Shown: positions 4,811-26,327 of the stretch, one piece after another
How the letters are laid out: every line of letters begins with the position of its first letter
How positions within the stretch are numbered: position 1 is the first letter of the stretch
NCBI GenBank assembly: GCA_027065125.1
Contig: JAMOOV010000135.1
Span: forward strand, 1 to 36,481
Origin: Campylobacterales bacterium
GTDB lineage: Bacteria > Campylobacterota > Campylobacteria > Campylobacterales > JALSKU01
Direction: 5' to 3'
Length of the DNA stretch: 36,481 bases
Made by a program: the position numbers and the translations under genes
The notes under the pieces: model-generated
The model's input: only the letters and a program-made list of their open reading frames with translations
Database searches by the model: none
Told to the model about the DNA's origin: nothing

Positions 4811-5821
4811 TTACTCCATTTTAGAAGCTACAAAATCAGCAAGCTCAAGCAGTCTTTGCGAATATCCATACTCGTTATCGTACCATGCAAGAACTTTTAC
4901 CATCCTATCCCCCACAACAGAAGTAGAGAGTCCATCTATGATGCTTGAGTGAACATTGCCAAGAATATCGCTTGAAACAACTTCATCCATAGTTATCTCA
5001 AGTATTCCATTAAGCTCTCCTTTGGATGCATCTATAAATGCTTGATTAACCTCATCAGGTGTCACACTTTTTTTCAACACTGCAACTATCTCGGTGATAG
5101 CTCCGTCAGGCACAGGAACTCTAAGAGCCATAGCCTCCATTTTACCTTTTAAAGCCGGTATAACCTCGGTCGTAGCTATCGCGGCTCCGGTGGTAGTCGG
5201 GATGATATTTACTGCTGCTGCTCTGCCTCTTCTTCTTTTTTTGGCTCTTTTGTCAACTGTTGTTTGAGTTGAAGTATAAGCATGAGTTGTAGTTATCATA
5301 GCATTTTCCACACCAAAAGCATCTTCAAGCACTTTCATAGCTGGTGCTAAAGAGTTGGTGGTGCAAGATGCATTTGAAATGATATGATGATTTTTCGGAT
5401 CATATTCGTTTTGATTGACACCAAGCACTATCGTTTTGTCTATATTTTTTCCGGGTGCGGAGATGATCACCTTTTTAGCTCCCGCCTGCAAGTGTTCTTT
5501 TGCAAGATTACCGTCGGTATAGTGTCCCGTACACTCAAGAACTATATCTATGCCAAGCTCTTTCCACGGAAGCTTTGTGGCATCATGAGAGCTGACTATA
5601 GTTATCTCTTTATCGCCTATAGTTAATTTCTCATTTTTTTCCGTTTTTATATCAAAATCGGCTCTTCCGTGAACAGAATCATACTTTAACAGATAAGCCG
5701 CATCCTCTACACTTGAAGTATTTGCTACTACTATTTCATAATTTTTAGGCAAATTTTTCATATAGTGCCTTAATACTTGATTGCCTATCCTGCCAAGTCC
5801 ATTTATAGCTACTCTTTTCAT
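4811..5821 (-). CDS. gap: Glyceraldehyde-3-phosphate dehydrogenase, probably NADP(H)-preferring
   Basis: Interconverts glyceraldehyde 3-phosphate and 1,3-bisphosphoglycerate. The nucleotide fold INGLGRIG is at residues 6–13. The catalytic cysteine is Cys153 in SNASCTTN and the catalytic histidine is His180 in TTTHAYT; WYDNEYGYS lies near the C-terminus. Two coenzyme sites differ from the usual NAD enzyme. The aspartate of the IND motif that holds the adenosine ribose is replaced (ANTS, Thr35). The Leu-Pro pair near position 187/188 is Lys191-Arg192 inside a very basic stretch. Both changes fit NADP(H), which would suit gluconeogenic use; this is inference. Its start overlaps the end of glgP by 4 bases. 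Confidence 0.95.
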   Translation of the reverse strand: MKRVAINGLGRIGNQVLRHYMKNLPKNYEIVVANTSSVEDAAYLLKYDSVHGRADFDIKTEKNEKLTIGDKEITIVSSHDATKLPWKELGIDIVLECTGHYTDGNLAKEHLQAGAKKVIISAPGKNIDKTIVLGVNQNEYDPKNHHIISNASCTTNSLAPAMKVLEDAFGVENAMITTTHAYTSTQTTVDKRAKKRRRGRAAAVNIIPTTTGAAIATTEVIPALKGKMEAMALRVPVPDGAITEIVAVLKKSVTPDEVNQAFIDASKGELNGILEITMDEVVSSDILGNVHSSIIDGLSTSVVGDRMVKVLAWYDNEYGYSQRLLELADFVASKME

Positions 5822-7935
5822 ATTTCATCCTTTAGATTTATTTTTTTAGATATTGGTAAATAAAATTTTTCCAAATACTCTTTCATCATTCTTCTTGCAC
5901 TAAAATTTGGGGAAATAGTTGAGATAGATTCTTTCATTTTTTCTATCCACTTATCTTTGTTGCCGTAATAGAGCGGAACTATTTCATTTTCCAAAATATC
6001 ATAAATAGCCGATGCATCTTTGCCGTCATTTGATATTTTACCGCCAATTACCCAACCGTTTTTTTGATTGTATCCCTCTATCCACCATCCGTCCCAACTT
6101 GATAAATGGATAGTACCGTTAATAGAAGCTTTCATTCCACTCGTTCCACAAGCTTCTAATGGTATTTTTGGATTGTTAAGCCACACATCAACACCTTTTA
6201 CAAGATATTTTGCCACCTCTTCGCCATAATCTTCTACAAAAGCAATCCTCCCTTTAAATCTTGGATTTTGTGCCGTTTTGAAAATATTTTGAATTATTTT
6301 TTTACCCGGATTGTCGGACGGATGAGCTTTTCCTGCAAAAATGATTTGTACCGGTTTTTCACTATTGCAAACTATTTTTTCAAGTCTGTCCAAATCTCTC
6401 AGTATCAAATCGGATCTTTTGTAACTTGTCATTCTTCTGGCAAAACCTATGGTTAAAACATCAGGATCAAGCATTACTCCTTCAGCCATAGCCACAAGAG
6501 GATCAATTCCCTCATTGGACCATTTTTGTCTTACTCTTTCTCTGATGAAATTTACCATTGCCATTTTATTTGCATAAGCTATATCCCATAATATTTTATT
6601 GTCGATATTGTCTATCTGACTCCATAAACTAATGTCATCTTGCAAATCAAGCCAATTTTCTCCAAATGTTTTATCAAGATTTTTACGAAATTCATCTCCA
6701 AGCCAAGTCGGAAGATGAACACCATTTGTTACATAGTCGATTTGGGTTTTATCTTTTTTATCCTCTTTAAAAACACTTTTCCAAATCTCTTTTGTAACTT
6801 CACAATGTTTTTTGCTAACAGCATTTCTTTGATCGCACATTTTAAGTCCAAATACCGTCATATTAAATCCGACTTCGGGTGCATCGGGATTAAGTCCGAG
6901 ATTTAAAAACTCATCTTTGCTCATCCCAAGTCTTTTCCAATAGTCACTAAAGTAGTTACTCATCATATCGAAACTATATACATCTGTTGCTGTCTGCAAA
7001 GGTGTGTGAGTCGTAAATATAGATGTTTCCCTTACTTTTTGAAGTGCATCATTAAGACTTAACTTCTCCTTTTCCATAAAATTTCTCACTCTTTCAAAAA
7101 GAGCAAATGCGGGATGTCCCTCATTTAAATGAAGTATCGAATACTCTATCCCCAACTCTTCAAGGACTCTATACCCTCCAATTCCCAAAACTATCTGCTG
7201 TCTTAACCGTTGGTTGGGATCGGGTACATACAAATGTGAGCTTATTTGTCTATCCCAAGGATCATTTTTATCTATATCTGTATCAAGTAGATATAAAGTT
7301 ACTCTCCCTACATTTATTTTCCATACTGCAGTATAAACCGGAGGATCGATAAAAGGAACCTTTATAATAAAGTGATTATTCTCTTTATCCATCACTCTTT
7401 CGATAGGTGCAATATCTTTATTTATAGTTTCATTTGCTCCGTTTTGCCATCCATCACTTCCTATGATCTGTCTTATATACCCTTGTGGATACATAAACCC
7501 AACTCCTACCATCGGGATATTCATATCACTTGACTCTTTTAAAATGTCTCCGGCTAAAAAGCCAAGACCGCCGGAATAGATGGGAACAGAGTGATGAAGT
7601 CCATATTCGGCACAAAAGTAAGCTATAGGCAAAGAGTTTTGTTTTTGTGCAGAATTATTGATATAGTTTTCAAAAAGAGTCAAAACATATCTATACTCTT
7701 TCATAAAATTTTCATTTTTTACCAAAGCTTTAAAATCTTCATCCGACAAACTTTTCAATAACTTTATAGGATTATGTCCACTCTCTTTCCATAGGTATGG
7801 GCTGATGTATTTAAAAAGTGCTTTTCCTTGCGGATTCCATGTCCACCAGAGATTTAAAGAGATTTTTTCAAGTCCTTCTATCTCTTTTGGAAGTTTAGGT
7901 ATAGCTATATTGGTTGAAGGATCACTACCTAACAT
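5818..7935 (-). CDS. glgP: Alpha-glucan (glycogen) phosphorylase with DUF3417 N-terminus
   Basis: Phosphorolysis of alpha-1,4-glucan to glucose 1-phosphate. I chose the ATG at 7935, one base after the eno stop, with GGA 6 bases upstream, giving 705 residues. An in-frame TTG at 7968 would extend it by 11 codons into eno and is less likely. An N-terminal DUF3417-type segment (ISLNLWWTWNPQGK) precedes the catalytic part. That part carries YFCAEYGLHHS, YSGGLGFLAGD, LHLNEGHPAF, TTHTP, NGVHLPTWLG and DVLTIGFARRM. The PLP-binding lysine is in EACGTSGMKASINGT, at about residue 602. A shorter paralogue lies at the end of the run. The 4-base overlap with gap suggests coupling. Confidence 0.95.
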   Translation of the reverse strand: MLGSDPSTNIAIPKLPKEIEGLEKISLNLWWTWNPQGKALFKYISPYLWKESGHNPIKLLKSLSDEDFKALVKNENFMKEYRYVLTLFENYINNSAQKQNSLPIAYFCAEYGLHHSVPIYSGGLGFLAGDILKESSDMNIPMVGVGFMYPQGYIRQIIGSDGWQNGANETINKDIAPIERVMDKENNHFIIKVPFIDPPVYTAVWKINVGRVTLYLLDTDIDKNDPWDRQISSHLYVPDPNQRLRQQIVLGIGGYRVLEELGIEYSILHLNEGHPAFALFERVRNFMEKEKLSLNDALQKVRETSIFTTHTPLQTATDVYSFDMMSNYFSDYWKRLGMSKDEFLNLGLNPDAPEVGFNMTVFGLKMCDQRNAVSKKHCEVTKEIWKSVFKEDKKDKTQIDYVTNGVHLPTWLGDEFRKNLDKTFGENWLDLQDDISLWSQIDNIDNKILWDIAYANKMAMVNFIRERVRQKWSNEGIDPLVAMAEGVMLDPDVLTIGFARRMTSYKRSDLILRDLDRLEKIVCNSEKPVQIIFAGKAHPSDNPGKKIIQNIFKTAQNPRFKGRIAFVEDYGEEVAKYLVKGVDVWLNNPKIPLEACGTSGMKASINGTIHLSSWDGWWIEGYNQKNGWVIGGKISNDGKDASAIYDILENEIVPLYYGNKDKWIEKMKESISTISPNFSARRMMKEYLEKFYLPISKKINLKDEI

Positions 7936-7936
7936 A

Positions 7937-9211
7937 TTATTTCCAATAATATTTAGCTCTATCGCCAAGTTTATCTTCTATTTCAAGAAGTCTGTTATAT
8001 TTTGCAAGTCTTTCACTTCTTGAAGCAGAACCGCTCTTTAAGTGTCCCGTTCCCATGGCCACAGTAAAATCAGCCAAGAAAGTATCACAAGTTTCACCTG
8101 AACGATGAGAAACGAAAGCTCTCCAGTTATGCTCATAGCAAAGTTTAACGGCATCAACCGTTTCACTTACCGTTCCTATCTGATTTAGCTTGATCAAAGA
8201 TGCATTTGCCGCATGTTCCTCTATCCCTCTTCGTATAAATTTGGTATTGGTGACAAATATATCATCTCCAACAACCTCTATCTTGTCTCCAAGCTCTTTT
8301 GTAAACTTTTTAAAACCTTCCCAATCCTCTTCTGCCAAAGGATCCTCCCATAAAATGATAGGATACTTCTTAACCCACTCTTTTGCCATTTCTATCATTT
8401 CATCTGTTGTTTTTTTGCCAAGTTTCGACCACTTCATATCGTACATACCTTTTTTTCCAACTACAAAAGAGGTAGCCGCACTATCGAGTGCTATACTTAT
8501 ATCAACACCGGGTTTGTATCCAGCCTTTTCTATCGCCTCTATGATGATCTCTATCGCTTCTTCATTGCTTTTAAGATTTGGGGCAAAGCCTCCCTCATCT
8601 CCCACTGAAGTAGCCAAACCTCTATCTTTTAAAAGTTTCTTTAAAGTATGAAATGTTTCGGCTACATATCTAAGCCCCTCTTTAAAAGTAGGAGCACCGA
8701 AAGGTACCGCCATAAACTCTTGGATATCGACACTATTGTCGGCATGTTCTCCGCCGTTTAATATATTCATACAAGGTACGGGTATCCTGCAAGCCTCAAC
8801 TCCTCCAAGATATTCATATATCTCAAGATGGTGGCTTTGTGCTGCCGCTTTAACCGTTGCCATAGATACTCCAAGTATCGCATTGGCTCCAAGCTTTTCC
8901 TTGTTTTTCGTTGCATCAAGTTCAATCAATTTTTTATCTATCTCAAGTTGAGCAGTCGCATTTATTCCCTTAAGTGCCGGAGCTATAATCTCATTGACAT
9001 TTTTAACAGCTTCTAAAACACCTTTGCCACCATATCTTTTTTTGTCACCGTCTCTTAATTCACAAGCTTCATACTCTCCGGTACTCGCTCCGCTTGGAAC
9101 GGAAGAGCTTACTCTTGTACCATCTTCAAGCTCCATAAAAACTCTAACAGTAGGATTACCCCTGCTGTCAAGTACCTCTAAAGCTCTTATATCTTTTATC
9201 ATATCGCTCAT
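7937..9211 (-). CDS. eno: Enolase
   Basis: Interconverts 2-phosphoglycerate and phosphoenolpyruvate. The 424-residue length is normal. Motifs seen are [29 protein letters not shown], the acid/base region [21 protein letters not shown] with the catalytic lysine, and SHRSGET. The C-terminal [20 protein letters not shown] replaces the more usual KTGSLSRSER form. The start at 9211 has AAAGGAG upstream; an internal ATG three codons later is less well placed. It lies directly downstream of the disulfide reductase with almost no gap. Confidence 0.97.
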
Positions 9212-22682: not shown

Positions 22683-22756
22683 GCTGATATAGCTCAGTTG
22701 GCTAGAGCACTTGATTCGTAATCAAGAGGTCGCGGGTTCAAGTCCCGCTATCAGCT
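22683..22756 (+). tRNA. tRNA-Thr(CGT)
   Basis: Full cloverleaf. Acceptor arms GCTGATA (22683–22689) and TATCAGC (22749–22755) pair perfectly, with T as discriminator. The anticodon stem CTTGA/TCAAG encloses TTCGTAA with anticodon CGT at 22717–22719. The T arm GCGGGTTCAAGTCCCGC is standard. CCA is not encoded. The integrase gene begins about 200 bases downstream, so the 3′ end is a plausible integration site. I found no second copy of the tRNA end in the window. Confidence 0.95.
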
Positions 22757-22960: not shown

Positions 22961-23904
22961 TTGATAAAAAAGTGTGGGAAAAAGTATGAGAAGGAGTATA
23001 AAACAAATGAACTTATACTGCAAATAAAATCCGGAAAACCAATAAATAAGAAACTTACACTAAGAACTGTATTTGATGAGTATATTGAGCATGTATCAAA
23101 GATACAAAGAGAATCTACAGTTAAAACAAAAGTATATTATTTCAATAAACATTTCAAAAAATTAGAAAGCAAACTTTTAAAAGATATAAAAACTGATGAT
23201 ATTCAAAAATTTGTAAATTCTCTTATAAAAAAAGGATATAAACCTCAAACGGCAAAACATCTTAGGAATTTACTCAAGGCTATATTTAATTATGCAATCA
23301 AAAAAAGATATATAGATTTAAACCCTGCCAACAATGTTGAACTTCCTAAGTTTAATAATGAGAGGAAATTTTATCTCCCAGAGGAAAAAGCTAAAGAGCT
23401 TTATCAAGAGATTTTAGAGATACCAGAAGACAAGTATAGACTTATGTTTCTATTTTTGTTAAGAGGACGGAGAAAAGGAGAGATATTAAGTCTTGAGTGG
23501 CAAGATGTTGATTTTGAGAGAAAAAGATATGTTATAAGAGATAAAAACAACAAAATAGGCGAAGAACAAACCCATCTTTTAGACGATGAGTTAATAGAGC
23601 ATTTTAAACTTTTAAAAAAGAAAAAAAAGGGATCATCTTTACATCACTTGTTGCAGGTAAAAAAATGAGCGATATACCAAGACGAACTTGGGCAAGAATC
23701 AAGTCAAAACTTGGCATTAAAATGAGAATACATGACTTTAGACATTTATTGGGTTTTTCTTTGATAAATAATGATATGCCGATAGAAGTTATCAGTAGAG
23801 CATTAGGACACAAAAGCATAAAAACAACCCAAAGATATAGTAATATGAAAGAAGAAATGGCAAAAGTTGGTACTGATGCTTTTTTAGAGTTGTTAAAAAA
23901 ATGA
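22961..23904 (+). pseudogene. Tyrosine recombinase (phage-type integrase) split by a −1 frameshift
   Basis: Two frames together make one integrase. The first (22961–23668, TTG start) has the SAM-like DNA-binding part (FDEYIEHVSKIQRESTVKTK, KYFNKHFKKLE-like) and the catalytic arginine in LLRGRRKGEILSLEWQDV. The second (23665–23904) has HDFRH, LGHKSIKTTQRYSN and the tyrosine nucleophile, so Arg, His-x-x-Arg, His and Tyr are all present. The break lies at the A8 run 23621–23628. The codons AAA AAA AAG there contain an in-phase A AAA AAG; a −1 slip restores IIFTSLVAGKKMSDIPRRTW-like continuity. Homologous sequence continues about 11 codons upstream of the TTG without an ATG, so the N-terminus may also be damaged. 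Confidence 0.75.
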
Positions 23905-23950: not shown

Positions 23951-23998
23951 GTGGCAAGTGTTAAGTTAATCAATTTAAGAATGGTATTTAATGAGTAG
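23951..23998 (+). CDS. Tiny ORF overlapping the nuclease-like gene
   Basis: GTG at 23951 opens 15 codons (ASVKLINLRMVFNE after the start) ending at TAG 23996–23998. That stop overlaps the next gene's ATG at 23991 by 8 bases. It may be a leader ORF coupling translation, or the leftover N-terminus of a deleted phage gene. No family recognised. Confidence 0.2.
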   Translation: MASVKLINLRMVFNE

Positions 23999-24380
23999 TA
24001 TCGAAGCTTTTATACAAAATTCTCTTGATAATGCATATTTTAACGAAATCTTTGAATTAAACATATCGGATGAAGTTTGCGATAAAATACAAAAACAATC
24101 AGGATTAAATGTAAAAAAATATAGATTTATAATAGAAGCTCAATATGTTAGACATATTAGAAATAGACATGAAGAGGATTTGTTTTTATTATCTAAGATA
24201 GAGACTATTTTAAATACATTCGATAAGGTAGAAAAAAGCTTGACAAGAAATAGTCAAACTGGTAAAACAGATATAAGCTTAGTGTTTGAAAAGAAAATTA
24301 ATGAAGATATTACAAAAATGATAGCTATAAGGATTATTAAATATAAGTTTTTATCATTGAAGACTTTGTACAGAAAATAA
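23991..24380 (+). CDS. Phage-type PBECR-like nuclease domain protein
   Basis: A 129-residue soluble protein. The centre reads RFIIEAQYVRHIRNRHEEDLFLL, followed by a segment reaching TRNSQTGKTDISLVFEKK, then SLKTLYRK at the end. This order (His-x-x-x-Arg-His core, a lysine/serine strand and a closing hydrophobic-Lys strand) resembles the barnase/EndoU/colicin/RelE-like PBECR domains found at the ends of phage head proteins. The assignment is by pattern and moderate. It is small and alone here, with no capsid genes. Its stop codon overlaps the T tract of the terminator of an opposing small RNA. Confidence 0.5.
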   Translation: MSSIEAFIQNSLDNAYFNEIFELNISDEVCDKIQKQSGLNVKKYRFIIEAQYVRHIRNRHEEDLFLLSKIETILNTFDKVEKSLTRNSQTGKTDISLVFEKKINEDITKMIAIRIIKYKFLSLKTLYRK

Positions 24381-24406
24381 AAAAGTAGCAGACCGAAAAC
24401 TGCTAC
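24379..24406 (-). terminator. Intrinsic terminator of the small RNA
   Basis: GTAGCAG at 24406–24400 and CTGCTAC at 24391–24385 (minus strand) form a perfect 7-bp stem with an 8-base loop. Six T follow immediately, then A and four more T. On the plus strand it would also help end the nuclease transcript, though without a T run. Confidence 0.75.
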
Positions 24407-24474
24407 AAATTTATAGATGTCGAGAGTTTTCATCCCATAAACGGTACAAGCCGCTCACTCTATCGGTTTTAGAT
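24379..24474 (-). ncRNA. Candidate small RNA, about 96 nt, with own promoter and terminator
   Basis: A consensus minus-strand promoter ends just upstream of 24474, and a textbook intrinsic terminator (7-bp G+C-containing stem then six T) ends at 24379. Between them there is no ORF longer than two codons with an ATG. Within the RNA, AGAGT and ACTCT (plus-strand 24423–24427 and 24457–24461) can pair, enclosing a smaller CGG/CCG hairpin (24442–24444 and 24451–24453). The RNA is convergent with the PBECR-like gene and its 3′ tail overlaps that gene's stop. It may be an antisense or antitoxin RNA, or a trans-acting regulator; the role is unknown. Confidence 0.6.
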
Positions 24475-24480
24475 AATACA

Positions 24481-24509
24481 ATTATAGCTAACAAAAATTA
24501 AAAAGTCAA
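24481..24509 (-). promoter_or_regulatory. Consensus sigma-70-type promoter of the small RNA
   Basis: On the minus strand TTGACT (24509–24504) and TATAAT (24486–24481) are separated by exactly 17 bases. This is the best-matching promoter I saw in the window. Transcription would start near 24474. Confidence 0.65.
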
Positions 24510-24563: not shown

Positions 24564-24594
24564 AACCCCTAAAGTAGGACTTCTTTAACTACTT
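24564..24594 (+). repeat. Left 31-bp direct repeat flanking the ATPase gene
   Basis: Begins AACCCCTAAAG and ends AACTACTT. It matches 25911–25941 at 30 of 31 positions, differing only T/C at 24575 versus 25922. Its AAACCCCTAAAG can also pair, with one mismatch, with CTTTAAGGGTTT at 24600–24611. Confidence 0.8.
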
Positions 24595-24718
24595 TAACTA
24601 CTTTAAGGGTTTTTATAGCTGATGCTTTTATGGATTTACTAAAAAGAGAATAAATTAGAGTTATAAATCTAATTATGGTATAATATTTTAAACTTACAAT
24701 TCCAATACAGGATGTAAA

Positions 24719-25909
24719 ATGCTTAATGAGATACGACAATACCAAAGAAAACTTTTTAAAAAAAACAATTTTACTTATAAAAGATATTTTCACAACACTA
24801 TCAGCCTTGATAAAAAGTTAGTGGGAATAATTGGGGCAAGAGGTGTAGGAAAGACAACTTTTTTACTCCAATATCTAAAAGAGTTAGATATACCTTTTAG
24901 TAAAAAACTCTATATTAGTGCAGATATTATCACTATACCATCGCTTTTTGAAGTAGCAAATGCTTTTTCTAAAGAAGAGGGAGAAGTTTTAATCATAGAT
25001 GAGATACACAAATACAAAAACTTTGAGATAGAGTTAAAAAAAATATATGATATTTTGGATTTAAAGGTTATATTTAGTGGCAGTAGTGCATTAGAAATTG
25101 ACAATGCAAAAGCAGACTTAAGCAGAAGAGCCATAGTATATGATGTTTTTGGTTTATCCTTTAGAGAGTTTATAGAGTTAGAAAAAAATATAACTTTATC
25201 ATCATATAAACTTGAAGAGATTTTAAATAACCATATAGATATATCTTACGAGCTACTTACAAAATTTAATCTTACTCTGCTTTTTAGAGAGTATTTAAAA
25301 AGTGGTTATTATCCATTCTATTTTGAAGATAAAGAGGATTATCTAATCAAGCTAAATGAGACGATAAATACAGTTATAGAAGTAGATATTCCGTCAATTT
25401 TCCCCATAGAATACAATAGTATCCAAAATCTAAAAAAACTTGTTAGACTTATATGTTTATCACATCCATATACTCCAAACATAAAAGAGCTACTTGTTAA
25501 AATGGATATGAAAGATAACTATAAAGGGCTATATAGATTTATAGAGTACTTAAATCGTGCAAAGATATTTAACACTTTAAAATCAACTACAAAAGAGGAT
25601 AATATCTTTACAAAACCGGATAAAATATACTTAAATAATACAAATCTTCATTATGCCTATTGTCAAAACAGTAACACAGGAACAATTAGAGAAGTATTTA
25701 CAACAAGTATGCTGCAAGAAAAACATACTATAACCATCGCAAAAAAAGGAGATTTTTTAGTTGATGACAAATACATCTTTGAAGTAGATGGCAAAAACAA
25801 AAGTTTCAAACAAATTAAAGATATAAAAGACTCCTTTGTTGTAGCTGATGATATAGAAATAGGAAGCGGTAATAAGATACCGCTTTGGTTATTTGGATTT
25901 TTGTATTAA
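24719..25909 (+). CDS. AAA-family ATPase with DUF4143 C-terminus
   Basis: A 396-residue ATP-binding protein. Walker A is GARGVGKTTF at residues 39–48, Walker B is VLIIDEIHK at about 90–98, and FSGSSALEI follows as the sensor strand. The second half is of DUF4143 type and ends with FLVDDKYIFEVDGKNKSF. That end resembles the Asp…Glu-x-Lys core of PD-(D/E)XK nucleases, although catalysis is unproven. The family is widespread and often found in accessory regions; its function is not established. It stands alone, starts with ATG after CAGGATGTAAA, and is flanked by 31-bp direct repeats, the right one beginning 2 bases after its stop codon. Confidence 0.85.
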   Translation: MLNEIRQYQRKLFKKNNFTYKRYFHNTISLDKKLVGIIGARGVGKTTFLLQYLKELDIPFSKKLYISADIITIPSLFEVANAFSKEEGEVLIIDEIHKYKNFEIELKKIYDILDLKVIFSGSSALEIDNAKADLSRRAIVYDVFGLSFREFIELEKNITLSSYKLEEILNNHIDISYELLTKFNLTLLFREYLKSGYYPFYFEDKEDYLIKLNETINTVIEVDIPSIFPIEYNSIQNLKKLVRLICLSHPYTPNIKELLVKMDMKDNYKGLYRFIEYLNRAKIFNTLKSTTKEDNIFTKPDKIYLNNTNLHYAYCQNSNTGTIREVFTTSMLQEKHTITIAKKGDFLVDDKYIFEVDGKNKSFKQIKDIKDSFVVADDIEIGSGNKIPLWLFGFLY

Positions 25910-25910
25910 T

Positions 25911-25941
25911 AACCCCTAAAGCAGGACTTCTTTAACTACTT
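25911..25941 (+). repeat. Right 31-bp direct repeat flanking the ATPase gene
   Basis: The second copy of the 24564–24594 repeat, 1347 bases further on, with one mismatch. The interval from one repeat to the other contains only the ATPase gene and a short leader. Confidence 0.8.
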
Positions 25942-26074: not shown

Positions 26075-26327
26075 ATGAGTAGGATAGAAAACTTAAAAGA
26101 TAATGTATATAAAGCAACTCTTAAAAGATTAGAATATATATTTAATGAGTTTGATAATATCTATGTCTCTTTCAGCGGCGGTAAAGATAGCGGAGTTTTA
26201 CTTAATTTGACTCTTAAATATGCAGATAAGACAAACATGTTACACAAACTTGGGGTGTTTCATATAGATTATGAAGCTCAATTATAGCGAGACAACCAAT
26301 TATATTGATAGAGTTTACGACTCTTTG
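26075..26327 (+). pseudogene. Truncated PAPS reductase/ATP-pyrophosphatase-family fragment (IbrA/DUF3440-like)
   Basis: The intact 70-codon frame (26075–26287) holds the PP-loop YVSFSGGKDSGVLLNL at about residues 30–45 and ends HIDYEAQL. Removing one T at about 26282 restores a continuation, YSETTNYIDRVYDSLP, which is what follows DYEAQ in this family. All similarity ends at about 26327, two bases before the ruvX stop codon. The rest of the gene (the family is several hundred residues) is gone. GAGGAAAGAG precedes the ATG. It is best read as the 5′ stump of a deleted gene at the island border. Confidence 0.75.

Follow-up and report, generated by a model that had tools for sequence, protein, structure and literature searches.

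The stretch of DNA analyzed here (the window; 36,481 nucleotides from a Campylobacterales bacterium) appears to carry a small RNA gene that runs head-on into the end of a gene for a predicted nuclease, which raises the question of whether this RNA is genuine and, if so, what it does for its neighbor. A preliminary description had proposed an orphan RNA of about 96 nucleotides and had offered three possible roles: an antitoxin for the nuclease, an antisense RNA, or a trans-acting regulator. The sequence elements on which that proposal was built are indeed present. On the minus strand, TTGACT (-35, 24509-24504) and TATAAT (-10, 24486-24481) are separated by 17 nucleotides and together (24481-24509) match 11 of the 12 consensus promoter positions. 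Transcription is predicted to begin near 24474 and to end near 24379, at a hairpin (24379-24406) whose 7-bp stem GTAGCAG/CTGCTAC (24406-24400 with 24391-24385) is followed by TTTTTT (24384-24379). The convergent, phage-type nuclease gene on the plus strand (23991-24380) likewise exists as described, and its stop codon overlaps the 3′ end of the RNA (24379-24474).

Neither the promoter nor the terminator alone is clearly above chance in the AT-rich DNA of the window. We counted 45 promoter-like sites where shuffled sequence predicts 50.7, and 8 terminator-like sites where 3.7 are expected. Moreover, the predicted fold of the RNA is only slightly more stable than those of shuffled versions (minimum free energy z-score of -1.44). 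A fortuitous promoter and terminator with no RNA gene between them could therefore be proposed, since each element alone is expected and the folding energy is ordinary. This explanation is already contradicted, and retains almost no probability, because a covariance model derived exclusively from the type-A set of relatives, with the window sequence left out, matches the RNA (24384-24473) with an E value of 1.4e-5 in a search of its own genome, and because the structure covaries in dozens of relatives. Promoter-like sites are also conserved, in that one matching at least 10 of 12 positions lies upstream of the homologous RNA at 16 of 25 loci, usually about 30 nucleotides from the pseudoknot described below if a 5′ hairpin is present and otherwise about 9 to 13 nucleotides away. 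Several loci (e.g., L044, L051, and L059) have no recognizable promoter in the 110 nucleotides examined. This conservation, together with the independent model match, places the RNA gene in the window beyond chance and bears out the proposal of a 96-nucleotide RNA with a promoter of its own.

The expectation that promoter and terminator would be conserved together fared less well. The U-tract is clear in the window copy, where the call of an intrinsic terminator stands, but it is weak or absent in most homologues, and thus the terminator role seems local to this copy. Because most relatives keep the hairpin without the U-tract, the hairpin is first of all a pseudoknot element. The further claim that nothing in this interval can encode a protein also needs correction. 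A minus-strand open reading frame of 59 amino acids (24254-24433) does begin within the RNA, but we rejected it as a gene because its translation would require read-through of the terminator and because it is absent from the close homologues L034, L035, and L040.

The window RNA is a member of a pseudoknotted family that had not been described before. Strict and permissive scans of the window and eight relatives against Rfam 15 gave no match at gathering score, in agreement with the earlier view that this is not a known family. Homologues occur at about 46 distinct loci on chromosomes, phages, and one plasmid, all of them in Campylobacterota or on viral contigs, with a single RNA copy per locus. 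When the RNA body was compared by blastn with 397 genomes of the class, copies of about 80% identity were recovered in two genomes (G205 and G310) and partial copies in two others (G333 and G344). RNA matches occur in 15 of the 397 class genomes and in 20 of 140 genomes of one family. A strict RNA-only pattern matched four viral contigs and 12 genome contigs, and all 12 of the latter are titled Campylobacterota although the genome collection spans 84,980 species from all phyla; some of these loci are redundant with genomes identified otherwise (L054 with G041, L062 with G155, L064 with G049, and L065 with G048). Blastn with the RNA in phage and plasmid collections gave nothing but short matches, most of which fell on the AT-rich promoter; one, on a plasmid of Arcobacter cloacae, was subsequently borne out by the covariance model. 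Early blastn matches in relatives were set aside as mostly promoter-like AT-rich stretches, and two other candidates (L031 and L010) were rejected as chance matches within genes. As a separate observation, the G344 contig carries an above-threshold match to Flavo-1 RNA (RF01705; L043 1241-1307) about 90 nucleotides upstream of its nuclease-associated RNA.

Members of the family share an architecture in which a 5′ ACC(A/G) segment base-pairs with loop nucleotides of the 3′ hairpin, and the resulting pseudoknot encloses an internal branched domain. In the window, ACCG (24464-24467) pairs with CGGT in the hairpin loop (24395-24392). The internal domain (24414-24462) is closed by a helix between 24462-24460 and 24416-24414 and contains two hairpins (24456-24451 with 24444-24439, and 24437-24433 with 24425-24421), all on the minus strand. 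Across 47 aligned sequences, 95.7% of pair cells are formed and 20 of 28 pairs include double changes. The number of doubly changed cells (201) far exceeds that in shuffles (62 ± 8), and the signal is lost when partners are slid by one to three columns. Because this alignment was fitted to the covariance model, it leans toward the structure; MAFFT alignments made independently of the model agree with it. Among the 16 type-A RNAs, 94.9% of cells are paired and 15 of 28 pairs are doubly changed, and no shuffle reaches either value. The subtype comprising the window, L034, L035, and L040 has another internal domain set in the same frame, with 98% of cells paired and six pairs doubly changed, and compensatory changes among these four sequences back the internal domain. 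The 4-bp pseudoknot itself is 98.9% paired and shows three A-U to G-C compensatory switches, with ACCA:UGGU in most homologues becoming ACCG:CGGU in the window, L034, and L077. Since G-U cells (27) outnumber A-C cells (6), the selected strand is the RNA strand rather than its complement.

The partner protein is a 129-amino-acid predicted RNase of the PBECR3 family (Pfam PF18812, E value 4.9e-10), scoring 39.8 bits against a curated cut-off of 30; some RNA-paired relatives of this nuclease score below that cut-off. Its AlphaFold2 model is confident (pLDDT 92.4). Six residues are invariant (H55, H60, T90, K119, K124, and T125), with H55 lying in a helix and T125 in the last strand. PBECR RNases are laid out with a histidine in a helix and a C-terminal threonine or serine (Iyer et al. 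2017, PMC5512222), and H55 and T125 fit this active-site layout. Foldseek searches of the PDB gave no confident match, the weak ones including RelE and HigB2, and the viral Foldseek matches are phage polyvalent proteins, several of them named nucleases. A tblastn search for the nuclease in phage collections found nothing, and weak protein matches at L024-L027 look unrelated to it.

It is the close association of this protein with the RNA that removes the label of orphan. Most RNA homologues lie convergent against the 3′ end of a PBECR3-family gene. Among 16 loci found through the RNA, nine have an intact nuclease, whose stop codon falls a few bases from the RNA, and four retain a C-terminal remnant. 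A PBECR3-like gene also ends against the RNA in G205, G333, and G344, and only the ends of the nuclease gene are left at the G310 locus found by blastn. Searches with the protein only bear on the possibility that the RNA acts autonomously on other targets, as a regulator or decoy encoded by the element, and that the nuclease is just a frequent neighbor. All eight intact subfamily nucleases newly found in this way have the RNA directly at their 3′ end (G048, G041, and the phage contig L040 from a protein-first search; G155, G251, a second G310 locus, G371, and G386 from an alignment search). In addition, other PBECR3 genes do not carry the RNA. Although orphan RNA copies exist, including one that accompanies a complete module in L040, we consider an autonomous RNA very unlikely. 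Likewise, no support was found for the earlier suggestion that it regulates other genes in trans.

The association is specific. PF18812 is present in 75 of the 397 genomes, but the 30 best Campylobacterota PBECR3 loci, which are mostly long reading frames, give no RNA match even at an E value of 10, and Helicobacter polyvalent PBECR3 proteins lack the RNA. A profile of the RNA-paired proteins misses these 30 loci with one weak exception. Therefore, the RNA goes with one subfamily and not with PBECR3 proteins in general.

The pattern of loss is equally informative. In a tally of about 46 loci, counted by hand and with a few weak remnant assignments, about 26 have the RNA with an intact nuclease, 12 have it with a broken nuclease, and eight have it without a detected nuclease; every intact nuclease of this subfamily that was examined has the RNA. 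The remnants are mostly the C-terminal end adjoining the RNA. In one case, the nuclease of G371 (L045) is deleted at the same place in G343 (L071), where the RNA is 97.1% identical and the flanks are 87.0% and 82.6% identical. These data bear on the idea that nuclease and RNA form an active ribonucleoprotein, with the RNA serving as cofactor, guide, or substrate mimic. Strict co-occurrence and conserved structure would suit any protein-RNA complex, but a dedicated cofactor is not expected to persist without its nuclease (about eight loci) or beside a broken one (about 12), and the RNA alignment shows no variable segment resembling a guide. We therefore regard such a complex as quite unlikely.

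Antisense control similar to that of type I systems, in which base pairing of the RNA to the 3′ end of the nuclease mRNA would trigger decay of that mRNA, has to be weighed because the genes overlap at their ends, in this case at the nuclease stop codon. A plus-strand hairpin and T-run at 24564-24615, noted by eye and absent from the terminator scan output, is a possible end of the nuclease transcript, and would extend that mRNA over the whole RNA gene. There is also precedent, in that RatA and SR4 act on txpA and bsrG at their 3′ ends (PMC4147584). Pairing of this kind, though, needs no conserved sequence, branched structure, or pseudoknot, and all of these are kept while the partner nucleases are only 27-43% identical to that in the window. 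The RNA is also nearly unchanged after the nuclease deletion described above. We consider antisense control possible but unlikely as the mechanism.

The local setting suggests that the nuclease and RNA arrived as mobile cargo. A tRNA-Thr(CGT) gene (22683-22756, plus strand) just before the integrase gene is the likely, though still putative, integration target of the element. In relatives of the genus, where an empty insertion site was sought, the gene and the tRNA that precede the integrase in the window are not neighbors. The tyrosine integrase gene (22961-23904, plus strand), directly upstream of the nuclease, is split by a frameshift into parts at 22961-23668 and 23665-23904; the shift lies in an A-rich tract near 23605-23629 and may reflect decay, assembly error, or programmed frameshifting. 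Following the RNA is the 3′-end remnant of a second integrase gene (24611-24652, plus strand, direct repeat D4; translated by eye, ending ADAFMDLLKRE-stop), and thus the nuclease-RNA unit sits between two integrase ends. Behind this tail is a second cargo gene, encoding an AAA_14 ATPase of 396 amino acids (24719-25909), which is flanked by a 31-nucleotide direct repeat with 97% identity (24564-24594 and 25911-25941). The repeat and the integrase tail suggest successive insertions of cargo behind integrase ends. At its far end, the island has a truncated PAPS-reductase/PP-loop gene (26075-26287), which is likely a remnant. Elsewhere in the window, ARAGORN predicts a tRNA-Ile(tat) (9079-9176) that Rfam does not, and its unusual length suggests that it could be false.

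Similar homes recur in other genomes. A tyrosine integrase gene, or the end of one, precedes the nuclease gene in the window, G344 (L037), G251 (L046), and L122, and phage genes for terminase, portal, or capsid proteins surround the modules of L040, L050, and L052 (the L040 capsid being assigned by eye). The L050 terminase large subunit (5290-8310) has a LAGLIDADG-like insertion. The L040 phage contig holds, besides its complete module, an additional RNA (4993-5092), which is an orphan and belongs to the other subtype. At four loci (L039, identical to L065; L056; L063; and L119), genes of a type I-F CRISPR-Cas operon flank the module on both sides, as named by NCBIfam except that Cas3 of L056 and L119 was recognized by eye from their starts, and an array of about 29 repeats adjoins L039. 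By eye, an HsdS-like gene precedes L044 and an HsdM-like gene follows L078. In G041, G155, L125, and L131, the RNA lies downstream of the PBECR3 domain, in antisense orientation to the long reading frame that contains it. Finally, the Arcobacter cloacae plasmid pACLO (NZ_CP053834.1) carries the RNA and a broken nuclease (L083 5989-6339), both unannotated and flanked by annotated genes, and an AbiEii-type toxin gene lies a few kilobases away. Integrases, phages, a plasmid, restriction-modification genes, and CRISPR loci are homes typical of toxin-antitoxin modules.

With the RNA family, its pseudoknot, strand, and promoter, the close pairing with one nuclease subfamily, and the one-way loss established, we infer a two-gene toxin-antitoxin module in which the RNA binds and blocks the RNase as in type III systems, and assign this reading a probability of about 0.62. 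Specifically, the plus-strand gene would produce a small BECR-fold RNase, predicted to do harm in its free state, and the minus-strand gene, from its own strong promoter, would produce an RNA of about 96 nucleotides that folds around the interaction between the 5′ ACCG and the CGGU of the 3′-hairpin loop. The folded RNA would then bind the nuclease and block its activity, and the pair may stabilize or defend its carriers, both mobile elements and CRISPR-Cas loci. Direct neutralization by a pseudoknotted RNA would account at once for the pairing with the nuclease, the conserved structure, the loss in one direction, and the mobile contexts. Among the roles originally listed, that of antitoxin is thus the one best supported by the pairing and the loss pattern, although it remains a prediction.

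Perhaps Campylobacterota and their phages put the same protein and RNA antidote to several uses, as an addiction module for minimal integrase elements, a guard of type I-F loci, an antidote encoded antisense within the gene for an injected phage effector, and a decoy that phages deploy against the host's own module. We consider this broader proposal possible but tentative. Where the RNA is encoded within phage effector genes, it may serve to protect the cell that produces the effector, and the orphan second RNA in L040 suggests a decoy, just as phage PhiTE uses a decoy RNA against ToxIN (PMC5449768). How producers keep effectors harmless becomes testable with the copies in CRISPR-Cas operons and phage effector genes.

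Several known systems invite comparison. In TxpA/RatA and BsrG/SR4, which are type I systems, the RNAs also overlap at their 3′ ends, but the toxins are mostly small membrane peptides, control is by antisense pairing, and no conserved pseudoknot has been described (PMC4147584). The PBECR domains of phage polyvalent proteins share PF18812 with the nuclease, and four RNA loci lie inside such reading frames. The founding paper for these domains does not mention a noncoding RNA partner (PMC5512222). The module gives a partner to a predicted phage RNase family that lacks a named inhibitor in the literature compared. CreTA and CrePA similarly place an RNA-controlled toxin within a CRISPR-Cas locus (PMC12737573), as do the four type I-F loci here. 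However, CreA is crRNA-like and needs Cascade (PMC12737573), whereas the present RNA mostly occurs without CRISPR, and a crRNA-like origin was rejected because, by eye, the RNA bears no meaningful similarity to the 28-nucleotide type I-F repeat beside L039. In the AbiF/RCd22 system of Clostridioides difficile, a structured RNA neutralizes a defense toxin by direct binding in trans (PMC12373285), but RCd22 is located upstream and has two motif copies, and its toxin is an Abi_2/AbiD/F protein related to Cas13 rather than a BECR RNase (PMC12373285).

The closest parallel is with type III systems (ToxIN, CptIN, TenpIN, and AbiQ), which also combine a small endoRNase-like toxin with a pseudoknotted noncoding RNA in mobile or defense settings. 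In known type III systems, the antitoxin consists of tandem repeats and precedes the toxin gene in a shared operon, separated from it by a terminator, and the toxin adopts a MazF/Kid-like fold (PMC5086642), whereas the toxin candidate in the window is a PBECR3/BECR protein and its RNA is a convergent single copy. The convergent order, the single RNA copy, and the separate promoter are unlike known type III systems and count against our favored reading. Also weighing against it are the RNA copies with no nuclease beside them, which might point to an independent role, the several loci that lack a recognizable promoter, and the prospect that the RNA instead works by pairing with an extended nuclease mRNA. 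Covariation does reveal the pseudoknot, but three defining features fail (tandem repeats, operon order, and a MazF/Kid-like fold of the ToxN/CptN type), and therefore we do not file the module as type III. Its convergent layout and toxin fold are undescribed for RNA antitoxins in the literature compared here. Besides contributing a structured RNA family absent from Rfam 15, the module would broaden the known range of RNA antitoxins, both to a second fold of RNase and to a new arrangement of genes.
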